NCBI GenBank assembly: GCA_002733505.1
Contig: NVVW01000013.1
Location: 1-64,000 of the forward strand
DNA: 64,000 nucleotides
Direction: 5' to 3'
Source: Methylophaga sp.
GTDB taxonomy: Bacteria > Pseudomonadota > Gammaproteobacteria > Nitrosococcales > Methylophagaceae
Below are positions 18,659 through 37,068 of the stretch, in pieces. Both the position numbers and the translations under genes were made by a program. Every line of letters begins with the position of its first letter. The first letter of the stretch is position 1. The notes beneath the pieces were generated by a model, which made no database searches, was not told the DNA's origin, and saw nothing but the letters and a program-made list of their open reading frames with translations.

Positions 18659-19084
18659 TTATATTGGCCCTAGCTCTTCTACCAAACTCACCAACTCTTT
18701 TGTAATCGAGATTAGTTCAGAGAGCAATTGTGGACTAATTTCTAGATACCCCTCATACTCAGCCAGATTACGTTGCTTATGGCATTTATCAAGTACTCTC
18801 CATTTAGCATTATCTAAATTGACCGTATGCTGTAAGCACTGAAGCACTAAATAACGGTTATCCGAACGATAACCATGCCACCGCATTGCAGCTAACGCTA
18901 AAGCATGAGCAGCACCATAAGCTAAAGAAAAGCGTCCTTCTTCGGATAATCCTTCAATTTGGGCATCTTGCAAGCGTCGCTTTGCTGAACGCACCATACC
19001 ATCAAACTCGTTCTGATCTGGTGGTTCTATCTTGAGCTTCTGGATCTTTACTAAGTTATCTAACTGTTGCAACGTCATCATCAT
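18659..19084 (-). CDS. HEPN-like partner of the nucleotidyltransferase
   Basis: A 141-residue helical protein encoded right after an HTH-nucleotidyltransferase gene, with a 29-base overlap. It resembles HEPN-fold partners of MNT proteins: helical, with a charged C-terminal part including DKCHKQRNLAEYEGYLEIS. It lacks a clear RX4HXY motif; the nearest match is RNLAEY, so RNase activity is uncertain. Such pairs act as toxin-antitoxin modules or antiviral factors, with the enzyme modifying the HEPN protein. A decayed copy of this gene lies at 21721-21972. Confidence 0.65.
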   Translation of the reverse strand: MMMTLQQLDNLVKIQKLKIEPPDQNEFDGMVRSAKRRLQDAQIEGLSEEGRFSLAYGAAHALALAAMRWHGYRSDNRYLVLQCLQHTVNLDNAKWRVLDKCHKQRNLAEYEGYLEISPQLLSELISITKELVSLVEELGPI

Positions 19085-19655
19085 TTCCTTTGATCCACAG
19101 TTTAGGTTGCGCTATCACTCTCGTCAAAAAAGAATTGTCCTTCTCGATACGTTCACGAAATTGTAGTGGAGTATAGATTGTAGGATTAATAGGTCTAGCC
19201 AAGCTTTCCTCAGCATCCGCTAATACTGTCATCAAGTCACTATAAGATAAGTTATCCGTGATCACCATCAAGTCAATATCACTACTGGCAGTATCCTCAC
19301 CTTTAGCAATAGAGCCATACACAAAAGCCAGTACTATTTGCTCTGAAACAGACTCTAAAGTAGCCTTAATTACATCGGTGATACCAAATGTTTTTCGAAC
19401 TATGCTCACCAACTCATTGTAAATAGGGTTTTGACTGTTAGCTTGATAATAGCGTTGATTGCCCTCTTTAAGTGACACCAAGACACCAGAAGAAACAAAA
19501 CTGTCCAAGATACGAGTAATCGTCCCTCGTCCCATTCCAGCTAGGCGAAGAATCTCATTAGTATAAAATCGCGCGTCAGGTTTACCATAAAGCAATCCCA
19601 ATACTCGCTGTTGTGTTTTGGTGAATAACGCATCACCCAGCGAAGTTGATGGCAT
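19056..19655 (-). CDS. Winged-helix MNT nucleotidyltransferase antitoxin
   Basis: A 199-residue two-domain protein. Residues 10-75 form a winged helix (LLYGKPDARFYTNEILRLAG, then MGRGTITRILDSFVSSGVLV). Residues 108-185 are a minimal nucleotidyltransferase with an intact GSX10DXD motif (G114, S115, D126, D128). MntA-type enzymes of this class adenylylate and silence a HEPN toxin. The HEPN-like gene follows with overlap. The N-terminal DNA-binding domain and two palindromes in the promoter indicate autoregulation. Confidence 0.8.
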   Translation of the reverse strand: MPSTSLGDALFTKTQQRVLGLLYGKPDARFYTNEILRLAGMGRGTITRILDSFVSSGVLVSLKEGNQRYYQANSQNPIYNELVSIVRKTFGITDVIKATLESVSEQIVLAFVYGSIAKGEDTASSDIDLMVITDNLSYSDLMTVLADAEESLARPINPTIYTPLQFRERIEKDNSFLTRVIAQPKLWIKGNDDDVATVR

Positions 19656-21083: not shown

Positions 21084-21830
21084 CTATTTTTCTATTTGTT
21101 TGAAGCTCGCTTCTATATAATCATATTTGATTCCTGCAAATGCCTTAAGAATTGCATCAAAAATCATCTTTGCAGCATTTGGTGGAACCGCCATTCCAAT
21201 CTGCTTGCGAACCTGTTCTTTTAAGCCTTTGAATTCAAAATCATCAGGAAAGCCCTGAAGTCGGAGCCCGCTCGTTTCCTAATAAATTGGGTAAATTATA
21301 GGCTATAATTTACTGCATGATTATTAGACCTCTACACCCTATATTCTTCCCAATGGTAGACATGAGTTCCACCACCACCACTTCCTGTAATCGTATATGA
21401 TGGTTTATTTGGATGTAATCGACGATAGATGTGACTCATTTTCGCTTTCTTACAACTTAATTTACATGCACTAATACGACTAACAATTTCTTTATCTGAA
21501 AGAGATTTGATCTTATCTACATACCAAGGTGCTTCAGAAAGTGCTTTTCGACGATTTGATGCTGTCATGGATAATATTTCATCTAAAAACCATGCATTTC
21601 TCTATGGCGGTGTAAATAGCAACCTATCTTCAACACGAGGAGATTGTATAGTTTTCTCATTATTCAATATGGGAAATTCGTACGGTTCAGAAAGTTTTTC
21701 TTTAACAGATACATAATCATTCATGCGTGTAGGCGCCGGAACCTCGAATTTAACTGTTTGGTCTTTTCGAATACCCACAAAATAATATATCGATGCCTGC
21801 GTTGAGCAGCACCATAAAACCGTCCTTCTT
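21084..21830 (-). pseudogene. DNA cytosine-5 methyltransferase, decayed C-terminal part
   Basis: Translated in pieces, this region gives the C-terminal third of an m5C methyltransferase: GAAQRRHR (motif VIII), IYYFVGIRKDQTVKFEVPAP, a target-recognition stretch, RRLHPNKPSYTITGSGGGGT, then ERA(R)LQGFPDDFEFKG and QIGMAVPPNAAKM (motif X). Three lesions are visible: a frameshift after QRRHR, an in-frame TAG near 21600, and a palindromic insertion (21291-21337) followed by a one-base shift. The N-terminal part with the catalytic PC motif is absent; upstream the sequence becomes a HEPN gene copy. It is dead. Confidence 0.8.
21291..21337 (-). repeat. Partial copy of the 73-bp palindrome inside the methyltransferase remnant
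   Basis: On the minus strand the sequence from 21337 to 21291 matches 45 of 47 bases of the left arm and centre of the palindrome at 36416-36488. It retains the inner palindrome GTAAATTATAG / CTATAATTTAC. It interrupts the methyltransferase frame between EEYR and the ERARLQ motif, so it arrived by insertion or rearrangement. Confidence 0.75.
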
Positions 21831-21972
21831 CGGATAACCCTTCAATTTGGGCATCTTGCAAGCGTCGCTTTGCAGAACTCACCATACCATCGAACTCGCT
21901 CTGATCAGGTGGTTCTATCTTGAGCTTCTGAATCTTTACCAGATTATCTAATGGTTGCAATGTCATCATCAT
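21721..21972 (-). pseudogene. Truncated second copy of the HEPN-like gene
   Basis: The first 51 residues are nearly identical to the HEPN-like protein at 18659-19084 (MMMTLQPLDNLVKIQKLKIE, then AKRRLQDAQIEGLSEEGRF). After GRF the reading frame runs into methyltransferase sequence (YGAAQRRHR). The junction lies in a 14-base stretch, TATGGTGCTGCTCA, that both parents contain. All of the functional C-terminal half is lost. Confidence 0.8.
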
Positions 21973-22096
21973 TTCCTTTGAGCCATAGTTTAGGTTGTGC
22001 GATCACTCTGGTCAAAAAAGAATTGTCCTTTTCCACGCGTCCACGAAATTGCAGTGGAGTATAAATTGTGGGGTTAATAGGTCTAGCCAATATCTG

Positions 22097-22408
22097 CTAG
22101 GCATCAGCTAAAACTGTCTTCATTACATCTGTAATACCAAATGTTTTTCGAACTATGCTTACCAGCTCATTGTAAATAGGGTTCTGACTGTTAGCTTGAT
22201 AATAGCGTTGATTACCTTCTCTATATGACACCAAAATACCTAAAGAAACGAAACCATCCAATATACGAGTAATCGTTCCTCGCCCCATTCCAGCCATACG
22301 AAGGATCTCATTGGTATAAAATCGCGCGTCAGGTTTACCATAAAGCAATCCCAATACTCGCTGTTGTGTTTTGGTGAATAACGCATCACCTAGCGAAGTT
22401 GATGGCAT
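22097..22408 (-). pseudogene. Truncated second copy of the winged-helix MNT gene
   Basis: A 103-residue remnant nearly identical to the first 96 residues of the nucleotidyltransferase at 19056-19655. An internal deletion joins TDVMK directly to TVLADA, removing the GSX10DXD catalytic core, and a stop follows. The winged helix is intact, so if expressed it could still bind the shared operators. Residual homology to the 3' part of the gene continues to about 21980. Confidence 0.8.
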
Positions 22409-25866: not shown

Positions 25867-26241
25867 TTAATCTAAAATCCAATGATGCAACATCTGATAA
25901 TAAAACTTATAAAACCCAAGCTCTTGGTCATCTCCATGAAAGCGTAACAAATCGACCTTATCATGAGCAACAGCAATACAACGAAACCGTAAACGATCAC
26001 CCCGCGCCATAAATAAATCTACCAAGTCGCAATAAAAATCTATTCTTGAAGGCGATACTTTTTGCCACTTAAACTCACCTCCAATATGATGCTTATCTCG
26101 CAAAGCATGAATATCTTTTTTTAGCTGCGCACGATCTTCAGCAGGCAACCATAAACTGCCAATAACCATATACCTTACAGTAGGATTTTTGGAACATAAA
26201 AGATCTGGGCGGCTTTCATCACAATAAATATCAAATTTCAT
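25867..26241 (-). CDS. DUF3800 protein, short C-terminally truncated form
   Basis: A 124-residue protein with the N-terminal half of DUF3800, an RNase H-like fold: MKFDIYCDESRPD, GSLWLPAEDRAQLKKDIHAL, GGEFKWQKVSPSRIDFYCDL. Full members have 230-300 residues and a later acidic site before ADLLLG, which is absent here, so activity is doubtful. Its start overlaps the hsdS stop by four bases, so it is translated with the restriction operon. DUF3800 genes are common in defence islands and next to hsd genes. A divergent full-length relative lies on the other side of the operon. Confidence 0.75.
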   Translation of the reverse strand: MKFDIYCDESRPDLLCSKNPTVRYMVIGSLWLPAEDRAQLKKDIHALRDKHHIGGEFKWQKVSPSRIDFYCDLVDLFMARGDRLRFRCIAVAHDKVDLLRFHGDDQELGFYKFYYQMLHHWILD

Positions 26242-28040
26242 ACTACAGCCTCCGAAAGCGTTGTTTTTATTGCTTGGGTTGAAAGTTCGCCTGAAAGAAG
26301 TTTGGGGAGTAATGTGTCTCGTAACTCTTGCAAAGTAAAAACCTCAATTTTCTGCTCAATCTGTTTTTCTAACAAATCATTTAACAATGTAATACCATCT
26401 AATTTTAGGGCTGGAATAATACATTTAGCTTGAGAAAGATGCTCCCTTTTTATATGTCCCATCGTGACGGCTTTATCAGCGGCTATTTGTTGAAATGCTT
26501 TTAAATGATGTTTAGTCCAATTGTAGTAAAACCATTTTGGATAATCTTTTGACGTAACTTTGAATAGATGTTGATTAAGCGCAACCTTGCCACCACACCA
26601 AAGATCTACCATTAATGATCCAGACCATGAAAACACTATATCGCCATTATTCACTATACACTCTGGCTTAATACTCGATTTTGCTTTCTCTGCTCCATCA
26701 GCAAAACCTTTTTTCAACTGAGAAATTTTCAAAACAGGTAAAGATGCTTCACCATCTTCGGGGCGAAACTTTTGTAAAGCTAAGCCATTTTGATAGTGAG
26801 CGATCTCATCAAGTGATTTAACCTCCCACCCCTCCGGTATCTCCCCCAATTCAGAATCAACCCATGTATCGGGGAATAAGGCGGCGGTGGTTTTGAGTTG
26901 TTGTTGGGTCTCGGTATCAAGTTGGTCTAATTCGGCATCGGTTTTGCCACTGATGGCACACATGGCGGCGCGCTCGATGATGTCCTGTGCTGTTTCCCCC
27001 TCACCTAAATCCTCTCCCAGAGGGAGAGGACTTTTTTGTTCCCTCTCCTTTTGGGAAAGGGCTAGGGTGAGGGCGTTTTTGGCTTTTATTTTGGCTTTAA
27101 CGGGTTCGAAATCGACAAACCAAGATTTAAAAATGGCTTGGGCGATATGTTCAAGGGTTTGGTTAGTTTGGCGGTTTAGTTCGATTTTGTTGTCTAAGTC
27201 AACCAGAGTTTTAACTATTTGTTCTTGTGTTGTTAAAGGTGGTAGTTTTAATGTTATTGATTTTAGACTGCTTAAAGGTTGTCCGATACCAGGAGTTCCT
27301 ACTTGTGATGCATTTTTAAGTAATTCATGATGTCCTGTATGACTTTTGAAAAAGTAATATAAATACATTGGTATTACTTTTGTATAATCACATGTGAGTT
27401 TCATCAAACTAGAGGATATAACATAGCGTTTGTTATCAGTGACTATGCCCACTTCGCCTATAGAGCCTCGATGCGGAAAAACCAAATCATTTTTATAAAC
27501 ATTGGCTGTGCCTAATTGATTTGCCTTTTCTTTTGATATGTAGACAAAACCATCAGAAAAGTTTATTGATTTAACAATGTTCTTTCCTCGAATGACAGGA
27601 ATGCCTTCTGTAGTGTACTCGTGACTTTTTAATCTCGAACCAAAAGGTCCTATTGCAATAGCCCCTTTTTTGATTGCGGCAATATCTTCAATTTTAACTA
27701 CTTGCCAATGGTTTTCCAGCGAAGGATTTTCAGACTGTATCTCAACCGCCTCAGCACTAATGATTTTTTGAAAAGATTCCGAGGTGCTTGCCCAATCTAC
27801 TATATCGACTTTATAAGGCAATATTGACTCATCAAATGCTTCTTCAATTGTAGCAAATAGAGAAATGGATAAAGGATTATCTGTAATTATTACTAGATCT
27901 AAATCTGAGTAGTTCTTAGCTTTCCACGTAGCTCTGGAACCAAATGCTAAAATTTGATAGCCAGAAACATAGGTTTGTAATATTTTACGAATCTCGTTCC
28001 ATTGTTCCTGACTTACATCAATGTTAGGAAGATTCATCAT
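26238..28040 (-). CDS. hsdS: MntA-type nucleotidyltransferase fused to type I specificity subunit HsdS
   Basis: A 600-residue fusion. Residues 1-102 are a minimal nucleotidyltransferase with an intact GSX10DXD (G34, S35, D46, D48) and a third Asp in YKVDIVDW (D79). From about residue 108 it is a full HsdS: first target-recognition domain (IGPFGSRLKSHEY, VGTPGIGQPLSSLK), conserved helix region (LTTQEQIVKTLVDLDNKIEL), then a second half (LGEIPEGWEVKSLDEIAHYQ to LRDTLLPKLLSGEL). No Met codon lies at the domain border. An in-frame repeat encodes LPLGEDLGEGE between the halves. The HEPN partner gene overlaps by 17 bases upstream. The HsdS part sets the DNA target of the HsdMS and HsdRMS complexes; the nucleotidyltransferase should modify the HEPN protein. 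Confidence 0.88.
   Translation of the reverse strand: MMNLPNIDVSQEQWNEIRKILQTYVSGYQILAFGSRATWKAKNYSDLDLVIITDNPLSISLFATIEEAFDESILPYKVDIVDWASTSESFQKIISAEAVEIQSENPSLENHWQVVKIEDIAAIKKGAIAIGPFGSRLKSHEYTTEGIPVIRGKNIVKSINFSDGFVYISKEKANQLGTANVYKNDLVFPHRGSIGEVGIVTDNKRYVISSSLMKLTCDYTKVIPMYLYYFFKSHTGHHELLKNASQVGTPGIGQPLSSLKSITLKLPPLTTQEQIVKTLVDLDNKIELNRQTNQTLEHIAQAIFKSWFVDFEPVKAKIKAKNALTLALSQKEREQKSPLPLGEDLGEGETAQDIIERAAMCAISGKTDAELDQLDTETQQQLKTTAALFPDTWVDSELGEIPEGWEVKSLDEIAHYQNGLALQKFRPEDGEASLPVLKISQLKKGFADGAEKAKSSIKPECIVNNGDIVFSWSGSLMVDLWCGGKVALNQHLFKVTSKDYPKWFYYNWTKHHLKAFQQIAADKAVTMGHIKREHLSQAKCIIPALKLDGITLLNDLLEKQIEQKIEVFTLQELRDTLLPKLLSGELSTQAIKTTLSEAVV
26998..27073. repeat. Palindromic dispersed repeat inside hsdS
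   Basis: Outer ends CCCTCACC (26998-27005) and GGTGAGGG (27066-27073) are inverted, with inner CCTCTCCCAGAGGGAGAGG and CCCTCTCC...GGGAAAGGG. The element is read in frame as LTLALSQKERE and SPLPLGEDLGEGE in the linker between the two HsdS halves and does not break the frame. Confidence 0.75.
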
Positions 28041-30296: not shown

Positions 30297-31103
30297 ATGA
30301 CACAAGGAAAACTAATTTGGCATGTGGCCTGTGATGAATCAGGAACCGATGGTCAGAAATACTATGGGTTTGGTTCCTTATGGATGAAGTATCAACGTCG
30401 AGGTGATTTCACCCGAATCATCCGTGATCTTAGAGATAAACATGGGTTCCATAACGAAATAAAATGGCAGAAAGCACACAAAAAAGACTCGGCTGATTTC
30501 TATGCGGAATTAGTTGATACTTTTTTTAAACATTCATGGCTTGCCTTTCATTGCATTGTTATACGTAAAGGAATGGTCAATAAGGAATTTCACGGTGGTG
30601 ACTATGATTTAGCCAAGAGAAAACATTTCACAAAACTCATTTCAAGCAAAATACAATCTGTGGTCAAAGCGCACTCTGATAGAGAATGTGAGTTTCGAAT
30701 TGAGGTTGATCCTATAGCATCTCGTTATCAAAAAGCGGATGAAGCATTTCATGTTATTGCCAACAACCAAATTTATAAAGAGTTGGCGGCAAAAGATGTC
30801 ATTAAAGCTGTCGTAACGAAAGATTCAAAAGAGTCTGAGCATATTCAGATAGCAGACTTTTTGCTGGGTGCAGTTATGAGTGCATTTCAAGGGAAAGCAT
30901 CTTCTGAGGCGAAATTAGCTGTTGCAACTAATATTGCAAGTTACCTTGGTTGGGACACGTTAAAACACGATACTTGGTCAACAGAGCGGAAATTTAATAT
31001 CTGGTATTTTCACGACCCAACCATAGGTAAAAGAGAAATTCAAACTCACAGTGTAAAATTGAAATATCCGTTAAGGTATAACTCAAATTCATTACTATCT
31101 TGA
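30297..31103 (+). CDS. DUF3800 family protein
   Basis: A 268-residue full-length member of DUF3800, an RNase H-like fold of unknown biochemical role. The acidic residues are in place: HVACDESGTDG at the N terminus, FRIEVDPIASRYQKADEAF in the middle and SEHIQIADFLLGAV toward the C terminus. I start at MTQGKLIWHVACDESG; upstream codons to 30228 are hydrophobic and lack family support. It is divergent from hsdM across a 118-base region. Its last ten codons lie in a 31-base sequence that is repeated exactly at the end of the Fic gene at 35077. Confidence 0.8.
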   Translation: MTQGKLIWHVACDESGTDGQKYYGFGSLWMKYQRRGDFTRIIRDLRDKHGFHNEIKWQKAHKKDSADFYAELVDTFFKHSWLAFHCIVIRKGMVNKEFHGGDYDLAKRKHFTKLISSKIQSVVKAHSDRECEFRIEVDPIASRYQKADEAFHVIANNQIYKELAAKDVIKAVVTKDSKESEHIQIADFLLGAVMSAFQGKASSEAKLAVATNIASYLGWDTLKHDTWSTERKFNIWYFHDPTIGKREIQTHSVKLKYPLRYNSNSLLS

Positions 31104-35073: not shown

Positions 35074-36180
35074 TTAAAGGTATAACTCAAATTCATTACT
35101 ATCTTGAATAAGCAACTTCATCAACTTAGGATGAATGAAAACCTTTTCTCGTCCAATTTCTTCTTCTTCCAACACACCAATCTTACACAACTGTTTCAGA
35201 TAAACAGAAGCCGTTTGGCGTTTAGCAATATTTTTTTCTACTAAGTTCCCAATGCGACAGTAAGGCTGCTCAAATAAAACTTCAACCAATTCTCTGCTAT
35301 AAACCTTAGGTAAGGTTCGTTGCACATACTCACGTGTATGTTTTTCAAGTTGGACAAGGGTATCTATTTTATTATTCGTCCATTTTGCTGTTTCTTCTAT
35401 ACCTTTCAAGATAAACAAAATCCATTCTTGCCAGTTTTGATGCTGAGTTACACCTAGTAATAAACGATAATAATCCGTTTTATTTTGAATAATATATCGG
35501 CTTAAATAAAGGATGGGGAGACCCAATAATCCCTCTTGAATTAAAAACAGACTATTGATAATACGCCCTGTCCGCCCATTACCATCAGTAAAAGGATGAA
35601 TAGCTTCAAACTGATAATGTGCGATAGCTAAGCGAATAAGAGGTTCAAGCTCTGTTTCGTTATGAATAAACACTTCCCAATTAGCCAGCTTCTCACGTAA
35701 TAACGCTTCACCTTCAGGTGGGGTATAAATAATTTCTTTTGTTTGTGCATTAGCTAATGCCGTACCGGGTACGCGACGGATCTGCATCTCCGCACCTTTT
35801 ATTTGGCTACAGATGGCAATGGCAGTATTGGTACTCAGCGGTCTTTCTTCTAAAGCTTTATACCCTTCGTAGAGTGCTGTTCGGTATCTTAGTGCTTCTT
35901 TTGTTGCAGCATCAGTAACATTGCCTGCATCTGAAAATTGAAATAATTTATCCATCGTGGTGACGATATTTTCAATCTCAGAAGATGACTTTGCTTCTAA
36001 TAATGGCAGTGTATTAATTAAAATAGCTTGGTTTGGAATTAATCTGGCAGCCTGATTTAATTCAGCTAATGCTGATCGTGCAGTGATACACTGCTTCAAG
36101 ATAATCTTGGACTCAATATCCTGTCGGGGCGGTATCGCAGGTAATTGTTGATACGGTTGCGCAGGATCCCAAACCATCAT
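35074..36180 (-). CDS. Fic family AMP-transferase with C-terminal winged helix
   Basis: A 368-residue protein. The Fic core motif [12 protein letters not shown] is intact, so it can likely transfer AMP from ATP to target hydroxyl groups. An N-terminal inhibitory motif of the form S/TXXXE(G/N), here SSEIEN, should hold the enzyme inactive. The C-terminal 90 residues form a winged helix ([20 protein letters not shown]), and its own promoter region has repeated ATCGACAT sites, which suggests autoregulation. Its last ten codons lie in the 31-base repeat shared with the DUF3800 gene. Confidence 0.9.
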
Positions 36181-36298: not shown

Positions 36299-36415
36299 AT
36301 ATCAATATTTAGCTATTAATAAAGCAATTACCACTCAAAATTATTTTTGGTCAACACCTTCTCACCACGCCATAAATAAGCAACCAGCTTACCTTTTTTA
36401 GCTATGCTGTAATCA

Positions 36416-36488
36416 AGTGTTGTGGTCTAATAATCATGCAGTAAATTATAGCCTATAATTTACTGCATGATTATTAGACCACAACACT
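36416..36488. repeat. 73-bp perfect palindrome
   Basis: Two arms of 36 bases are exact inverted copies around a single central C. The left arm begins AGTGTTGTGGTCTAATAATC and the right arm ends GATTATTAGACCACAACACT. It cuts off the N-terminal part of the integrase remnant. No T-run follows, so it is not a terminator. One arm and the centre recur at 21291-21337. It may be two element ends joined head to head, a miniature element, or a rearrangement scar. Confidence 0.85.
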
Positions 36489-36868
36489 CTATCGTTCACT
36501 CAGAACGAGGTGCAAATACACTCGGTGAATTAATATCCTCATTCCGTGATAAACGTGTCTGTCCCTATGTGATCCACCAAATGCCAGTACGTAGAGCAAA
36601 AATCATCGCCAGCGAGAAAGATCACGTTATGCAGCTAACTTGCGACCAGTTGTCAAAAGGATTTGCAAGGGCACGAGATCTTGCTGGCGTTGGAAAAGAA
36701 AGTAGCCACCCTCCAACTTTGCATGAGCTTATAAGTTTGGGAGAGTTTTTACGAAAAGAACAGGGATGGACAATAAAACAAATACAAAAGCTTCGCGGCC
36801 ATACTAGCGAAAAAATGACCATGAAATACTTGGAAGGACAAGAGTGGACTACTGTTCTTGAAGCATAA
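36467..36868 (+). pseudogene. int: Tyrosine integrase, C-terminal remnant
   Basis: The 133-residue frame covers the catalytic C-terminal part of a phage-type integrase: VCPYVIHQMPVRRAKI, LTCDQLSKGFARARDLAGVG, HELISLGEFLRKEQGWTIKQ and RGHTSEKMTMKYLEG with the His and the tyrosine nucleophile. The HXXR arginine is Ile here (HELISLG where HELRSLG is usual). The N-terminal half with the first arginine is gone, replaced by the arm of a 73-bp palindrome that also supplies the apparent start codon. It lies beside tRNA-Leu, where the integrase of a tRNA-targeted island is expected. Confidence 0.85.
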
Positions 36869-36982: not shown

Positions 36983-36996
36983 TGGTGCCGACGGGC
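36983..36996. repeat. Right attachment-site copy (attR-like) in tRNA-Leu
   Basis: TGGTGCCGACGGGC covers the CCA end, acceptor and part of the T-arm of the tRNA and is repeated at 18499-18512. Confidence 0.65.
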
Positions 36997-37068
36997 GGGG
37001 TCGAACCGCCACGGACTATGTCCACCACCCCCTCAAGATGGCGTGTCTACCAATTTCACCACGTCGGC
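36983..37068 (-). tRNA. leuU: tRNA-Leu (anticodon GAG)
   Basis: An 86-nt tRNA with encoded CCA. The acceptor stem GCCGACG pairs with CGTCGGC, the anticodon loop is CTTGAGG (anticodon GAG), the T-loop is GGTTCGACCCC, and a long variable arm (GGACATAGTCC) is typical of leucine tRNAs. It serves as the integration site of island 1 and lies just downstream of secG. Confidence 0.95.

Follow-up and report, generated by a model that had tools for sequence, protein, structure and literature searches.

A 69-bp perfect palindrome in a Methylophaga genomic island, a probable deletion scar of inverted IS3-type insertion sequences

Nearly precise excision of Tn10 is understood as a RecA-independent deletion between repeats that lie inside the inverted IS ends of the transposon, and the target duplication of the composite element is retained in the process. 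Internally located inverted repeats are described for Tn10 in the available part of one source (PMC5991714), and the available part of another deals with illegitimate recombination or copying errors between short direct repeats and with hairpins (PMC12524634). Here, we describe a perfect palindrome in a 64,000-nt stretch of DNA from Methylophaga sp. (contig NVVW01000013.1, positions 1 to 64,000; referred to below as the window), together with an identical copy on another contig, C32, of the same genome.

As in Tn10/IS10 nearly precise excision, the palindrome would be a short scar left by a short-repeat deletion within the outer ends of inverted IS copies. The arrangement typical of such a scar was found at two loci, where outer IS ends are joined at an internal repeat to give IRL-core-IRL (IRL, left inverted repeat). 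Unlike the Tn10/IS10 products, the palindrome derives from an IS3-type element and would be a natural genome scar rather than the outcome of a laboratory assay; its loci have lost target DNA and have no flanking target duplication, and no composite transposon is known at either of them. Because the flanks (AAG/CTC in the window and GAC/CAA on C32) show no target duplication, the precursor would not have been one composite insertion. By analogy, the palindrome appears to work like a nearly precise excision scar without being a strict member of that class. It also resembles miniature elements (MITEs) derived from IS ends, in that short noncoding DNA lies between inverted IS ends. Of the features that define MITEs, inverted terminal repeats are present, whereas a target duplication and a clean insertion are absent; the palindrome further differs from MITEs in being accompanied by deletions and in occurring in only two copies.

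The palindrome and its source insertion sequence

A sequence-only reading of the window had described a perfect palindrome with 36-nt arms around one base at positions 36416 to 36488, and we recovered exactly this structure, with the center base at 36452. It is the longest single-center palindrome in the window. The runner-up has 11-nt arms at 21302 and represents the core of the IS end that also forms the arms of the longer one. In 20 first-order Markov resamplings of the window, the longest palindrome arms per resampling were 7 to 9 nt, compared with the 36 nt observed. The copy on C32 (C32:5134-5202) is identical over 69 bp. Since that copy is flanked by GAC/CAA and lacks the outer AG/CT that extends the window copy from 69 to 73 bp, the extension is most simply attributed to chance (1 in 16). 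The meaningful part of the palindrome is therefore the 69 bp from 36418 to 36486, which consists of two identical IRLs with their tips outward. At its center is a 23-bp palindromic core, GTAAATTATAG-C-CTATAATTTAC (36441 to 36463), which we propose as a deletion junction. This core occurs once within the IRL, 24 to 46 nt inside the tip, and is also contained in the 99-bp IS left end.

We searched the whole genome (2.37 Mb in 43 contigs; assembly 93.5% complete) with the left-end sequence, and the palindrome arms proved to be the IRL of an IS3-type element located elsewhere in the genome. The query gave 16 matches at eight places: the window palindrome, C32:5134-5202, the starts of contigs C4, C5, C14, and C38, the diverged remnant C42:21272-21336, and the end of C10, where the match is a rearranged pair of left-end pieces. 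The four contig starts place the element in at least four other positions of the genome, and the earlier suggestion that the palindrome is the footprint of a mobile element is borne out in this respect. At all four starts, the tip TGTTGTGGTCTAATAATCATGCAGTAAATTATAGCCTATAATTTAC runs into an open frame beginning MPRKERITFTPEQKLDYAKLMVEEG (longest read on C10), which indicates that the sequence is an IS left end, comprising the IRL and the start of OrfA. At the end of C10 (G000:C10:51904-52026; L018:1005-1127), the exact tip of a second left end breaks into OrfA of an IS copy after GAAGGT; only 23 nt of this second left end are left before a gene that we take to be istA-like, and the final join has a TGCA overlap. 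Many contigs of this repeat-rich genome end in other repeats, for example GGGTATATACCC, and these resemble mobile elements.

Shared end sequences were sought at both termini of every one of the 43 contigs (86 ends). A right end (IRR) was found at six contig ends, with the tip TGAAGTGGTCAAGTATTAATGCAG and a frame terminating in RLHSSLGYITPAQKMAQLKKVA. The IRR shares 25 of 34 positions with the IRL. A 3-bp flank duplication was present in 2 of 24 left-right pairings, with 0.4 expected by chance; the paired ends are C14/C34 (ATC) and C5/C20 (AGC). Joining the C14/C34 flanks restored a 199-aa open frame, and the 195 of its residues used as query aligned in a single full-length piece (195 aa, 585 nt; 63%) to a phage DNA packaging protein. 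Because C14 and C34 share both the ATC duplication and the restored phage packaging gene, IRL and IRR can be assigned to one IS. The C5/C20 pairing is weaker, since its joined frame of 129 aa barely exceeds the mismatched controls in its row, which reach 126 aa, and had no match in the plasmid search. Two left ends (C4 and C38) and four right ends (C3, C15, C18, and C24) were not paired. None of the 16 combinations of the four palindrome flanks with these unpaired right ends gave a 3-bp match, a result that is neutral if the right flanks were deleted. No full-length copy of the source IS was recovered from this genome assembly.

Both 34-nt palindrome arms match the IRL at the starts of C4, C5, C14, and C38 in 34 of 34 positions but match the distinct IRR in only 25. 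We concluded on this basis that the palindrome has the structure IRL-IRL, not IRL-IRR. An IRL-IRR fusion was ruled out as its origin by the nine positions at which IRR is unlike IRL, and the abutted ends of an IS circle were ruled out by the outward direction of the tips. A striking perfect palindrome is in this way accounted for by an ordinary insertion sequence.

The TG...CA inverted repeats and 3-bp target duplication that are features of the IS3 family are both present in the source IS, and one of its two duplications, the ATC pair, is backed by the full-length protein match. The assembled coding parts are only residues 1 to 26 of OrfA and the last 22 residues of OrfB. Annotation as IS3 family transposase was found for 6 of the best 12 of 32 plasmid records matching the OrfA piece and for 10 of the best 12 of 25 matching the OrfB piece; the 26-aa OrfA piece had no Pfam or NCBIfam match. 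Each piece has its counterpart in the corresponding position of complete relatives that are annotated as IS3 family transposase and have the order IRL-OrfA-OrfB-IRR over about 1.26 kb. These relatives are on Arsenophonus nasoniae pArsFIN2 and Pseudoalteromonas pPsKG3_1 (loci L168 and L169). They have a similar OrfA start (64% over 25 residues), a related OrfB tail, a left end of the TGTAGTGGTCTAATAA or TGTAATGGTCTAATGA type followed by a TATAGC-TATAATT-like stretch, and a right end that contains TTGACC. In contrast, their core is a less perfect palindrome, and the window palindrome differs from such copies in having two left ends and no coding sequence. In the source IS, a joined IRR-3 bp-IRL would read TTGACC, 17 nt, TCTAAT, a candidate junction promoter predicted from sequence only. 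This predicted junction would be of the same type as the fusion promoters at joined ends that the available part of one source describes for copy-out/paste-in elements (PMC7780238).

Genes interrupted at the two palindrome loci

In the window, the palindrome is bordered on the right by the C-terminal part of the island's tyrosine integrase (36487 to 36868, + strand), which is 86% identical to a 356-aa integrase in a relative (G009, record JAQRMU010000023.1). The sequence-only reading had the palindrome replacing the N-terminal half of this integrase; the C-terminal part is indeed kept, but it starts at about residue 230 of the 356-aa relative, and the loss is nearer two-thirds than half. The remnant matches Pfam Phage_integrase with an E value of 3e-4, below the family cutoff. 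A tRNA-Leu(GAG) gene predicted by ARAGORN (36983 to 37068, - strand) is likely to be the attachment site of the island. The full-length integrase in G009 adjoins the same tRNA-Leu, and tRNA-Leu(GAG) adjoins the integrase at loci L156 and L160 too.

On the left, a second gene is cut, a divergent metallophosphoesterase of which the last 29 codons remain (36331 to 36417, - strand). In tblastn searches, this tail matched four plasmid records, two annotated as metallophosphoesterase and two unannotated; the best identity was 62.5%, and all four matches covered at least 93% of the 29 residues. The N-terminal part of neither gene was found elsewhere in the 93.5%-complete assembly. For the integrase, the sole match was the window itself, and the metallophosphoesterase query matched the window tail and, distantly (29%), a sequence on C37.

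The C32 palindrome interrupts a different IS3-type element within its first gene; the second gene of that element encodes an rve integrase core. Both of its flanks lie within that one gene, in the right order. In an intact homologue (G008), 150 nt separate two anchors, whereas in C32 the identical anchors are separated by 10 nt plus the palindrome, which indicates that about 140 nt of the target gene are gone. In the right arm of the window palindrome, an ATG at 36467 is in frame with the integrase tail, and the right arm of the C32 palindrome (L003) likewise has an ATG in frame with the transposase OrfA tail. The occurrence of an in-frame ATG in both right arms may be chance (about 1 in 9).

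Proposed origin of the palindrome

We consider it probable that the 69-bp palindrome is the deletion scar of two IS3-type copies in opposite orientation, lost together with the DNA between them. Two such copies with their left ends outward would have been inserted, one of them into the gene for the metallophosphoesterase and the other into that for the integrase. Because the core is palindromic, the 23-bp core of each IRL would read as a direct repeat (22 of 23 positions) between the inverted copies. These copies would form a large hairpin, and replication slippage or illegitimate recombination from core to core would then remove both IS bodies and everything between them, leaving flank-IRL-core-IRL-flank. 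The same event would have taken place in the second gene, at C32, with a loss of about 140 bp of target.

Several elements of this proposal are directly supported. The arms are identical to the IRL and distinct from the IRR, at either locus the tip on each side is exact, the window junction brings together two unrelated truncated genes, and a deletion is present at C32. We infer the inverted precursor and the slippage step from these junctions. A core-to-core deletion would keep each of the two tips exact, produce no duplication, and remove the intervening DNA; the support for it comes from only two loci. The lack of a flanking 3-bp duplication is expected for a deletion junction but not for a single insertion. 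An inverted IS pair is not visible in this genome's assembly, because full IS copies break contigs in it. For C32, two independent insertions about 140 bp apart would presuppose that insertion is locally preferred or that a duplicative inversion took place, and at either locus the palindrome flanks could have been joined by another illegitimate route. An IRL-IRL deletion scar is an uncommon yet understandable type of genome scar.

The main biological rival is foldback template switching that involves one IS end alone: the nascent strand would turn back on itself at the core, be extended backwards along the IRL as far as the tip, and then jump downstream. One IS copy per site would suffice, the core can form a hairpin, and the window copy runs 2 bp past the tip (AG/CT), as an overshoot would. 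However, the copied arm must stop 0 to 2 nt from the IS tip at both loci, a precision that foldback would predict only if the template ended at that point. This argument from tip precision comes from two loci only, and we regard foldback as unlikely. A 69-bp miniature element with two IRLs, moved by the IS transposase, would explain the two outward transposase-type ends and the two identical dispersed copies, but neither copy has a 3-bp duplication, about 140 bp of target is gone at C32, and two genes are cut in the window; we find this origin highly improbable.

The palindrome could also be an artifact in which unresolved inverted IS pairs, or unrelated left ends, were falsely joined through the core during assembly or library preparation. 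A turn-round at the core would produce such a structure, and IS copies do break the assembly of this genome. Against this, the longest exact word common to the IRL and its own reverse complement is 11 nt, too short for graph assembly, and contig ends at the source IS overlap by up to 99 nt, which suggests long assembly k-mers. Moreover, neither flank of a palindrome is an inverted duplicate of the other, and the C32 flanks belong to a single gene and keep its order. From these sequence features, library or assembly foldback is an unlikely source of the palindrome, and an artifact of any of these kinds seems quite improbable.

To return to the proposed deletion between inverted copies, a palindrome inside an IS end could make inverted copies yield a recurring deletion scar. 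If this mechanism is true, such scars reveal past IS-driven deletions where no IS remains, here the loss of the island integrase. A broader proposal can be made only tentatively, and we hold it to be doubtful: that, owing to the palindromic core, any two inverted copies of the source IS can collapse to one and the same 69-bp IRL-IRL unit that keeps two transposase end sites, such that the IS would be both a deletion maker that trims genomic islands and a source of miniature elements and, in the window, would have disabled the integrase and fixed the defense cargo of the island.

Distribution, the 21.3-kb copy, and the intervening cargo

Searches of relatives (59 genomes) and at the order level (63 genomes), both including the genome studied here, identified left ends of related IS in five further genomes, each from the same genus, and the palindrome itself in the present genome only. 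In a genus search of 29 genomes with a palindrome-bearing query, some single left ends matched both strands merely because the query is palindromic. An exact 27-mer scan of genome contigs gave no match, nor did an exact-word scan with an IRR word or a search of plasmids with the 99-nt left end as query. The exact-word scan of viral contigs identified a single phage contig, in which the left end of this IS lies within the same packaging gene. In the literature searched, which consisted mainly of titles and abstract openings, we found no IRL-IRL scar described for any IS3 element.

A partial copy of the palindrome had been noted at 21291 to 21337, and 47 nt there do match at 96%. The feature is a diverged, truncated IS left end (IRL to OrfA; 21272 to 21336, - strand) that matches the left end of the IS at 94% across 66 nt and is not palindromic outside its core. 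Its tip is TGTAGAGG instead of TGTTGTGG, a kind of tip also present in relatives (L031), and the copy breaks off 2 nt short of the OrfA start codon. It interrupts a gene presumed, from the earlier naming and in agreement with its motifs, to encode an m5C methyltransferase, with frames on either side. Both copies thus lie at gene breaks, as had been stated, one in the integrase and the other in the methyltransferase frame. The apparently inverted center base of the 21.3-kb copy is merely what an odd-length palindromic core shows when read on the opposite strand.

The two copies had also been proposed to be the ends of one element with a 15-kb cargo. This did not hold up: the 21.3-kb copy is a lone, diverged IRL with its tip facing the cargo, and the palindrome arose in a separate event and has an identical twin on C32. 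A 15-kb composite transposon from 21.3 to 36.4 kb is not supported, given this inward-facing end, and inversion or mobility of the 15-kb segment found no support; nor is the cargo supported as one mobile unit. The DNA between the copies carries, among other genes, a type I restriction system, a TOTE-type primase-helicase, a zeta-toxin-like kinase gene, and a Fic gene. An exact 31-bp direct repeat (31073 to 31103 and 35077 to 35107, 4,004 bp apart) lies at the ends of a DUF3800 gene and the Fic gene. Two diverged (88 to 90%) direct duplications of 300 nt each, at 18928 to 19654 and 21816 to 22407, are near nucleotidyltransferase and HTH-like frames and adjoin the methyltransferase remnant. Finally, positions 26238 to 28040 encode an HsdS-like specificity protein with an N-terminal Polbeta/MntA-type nucleotidyltransferase domain.
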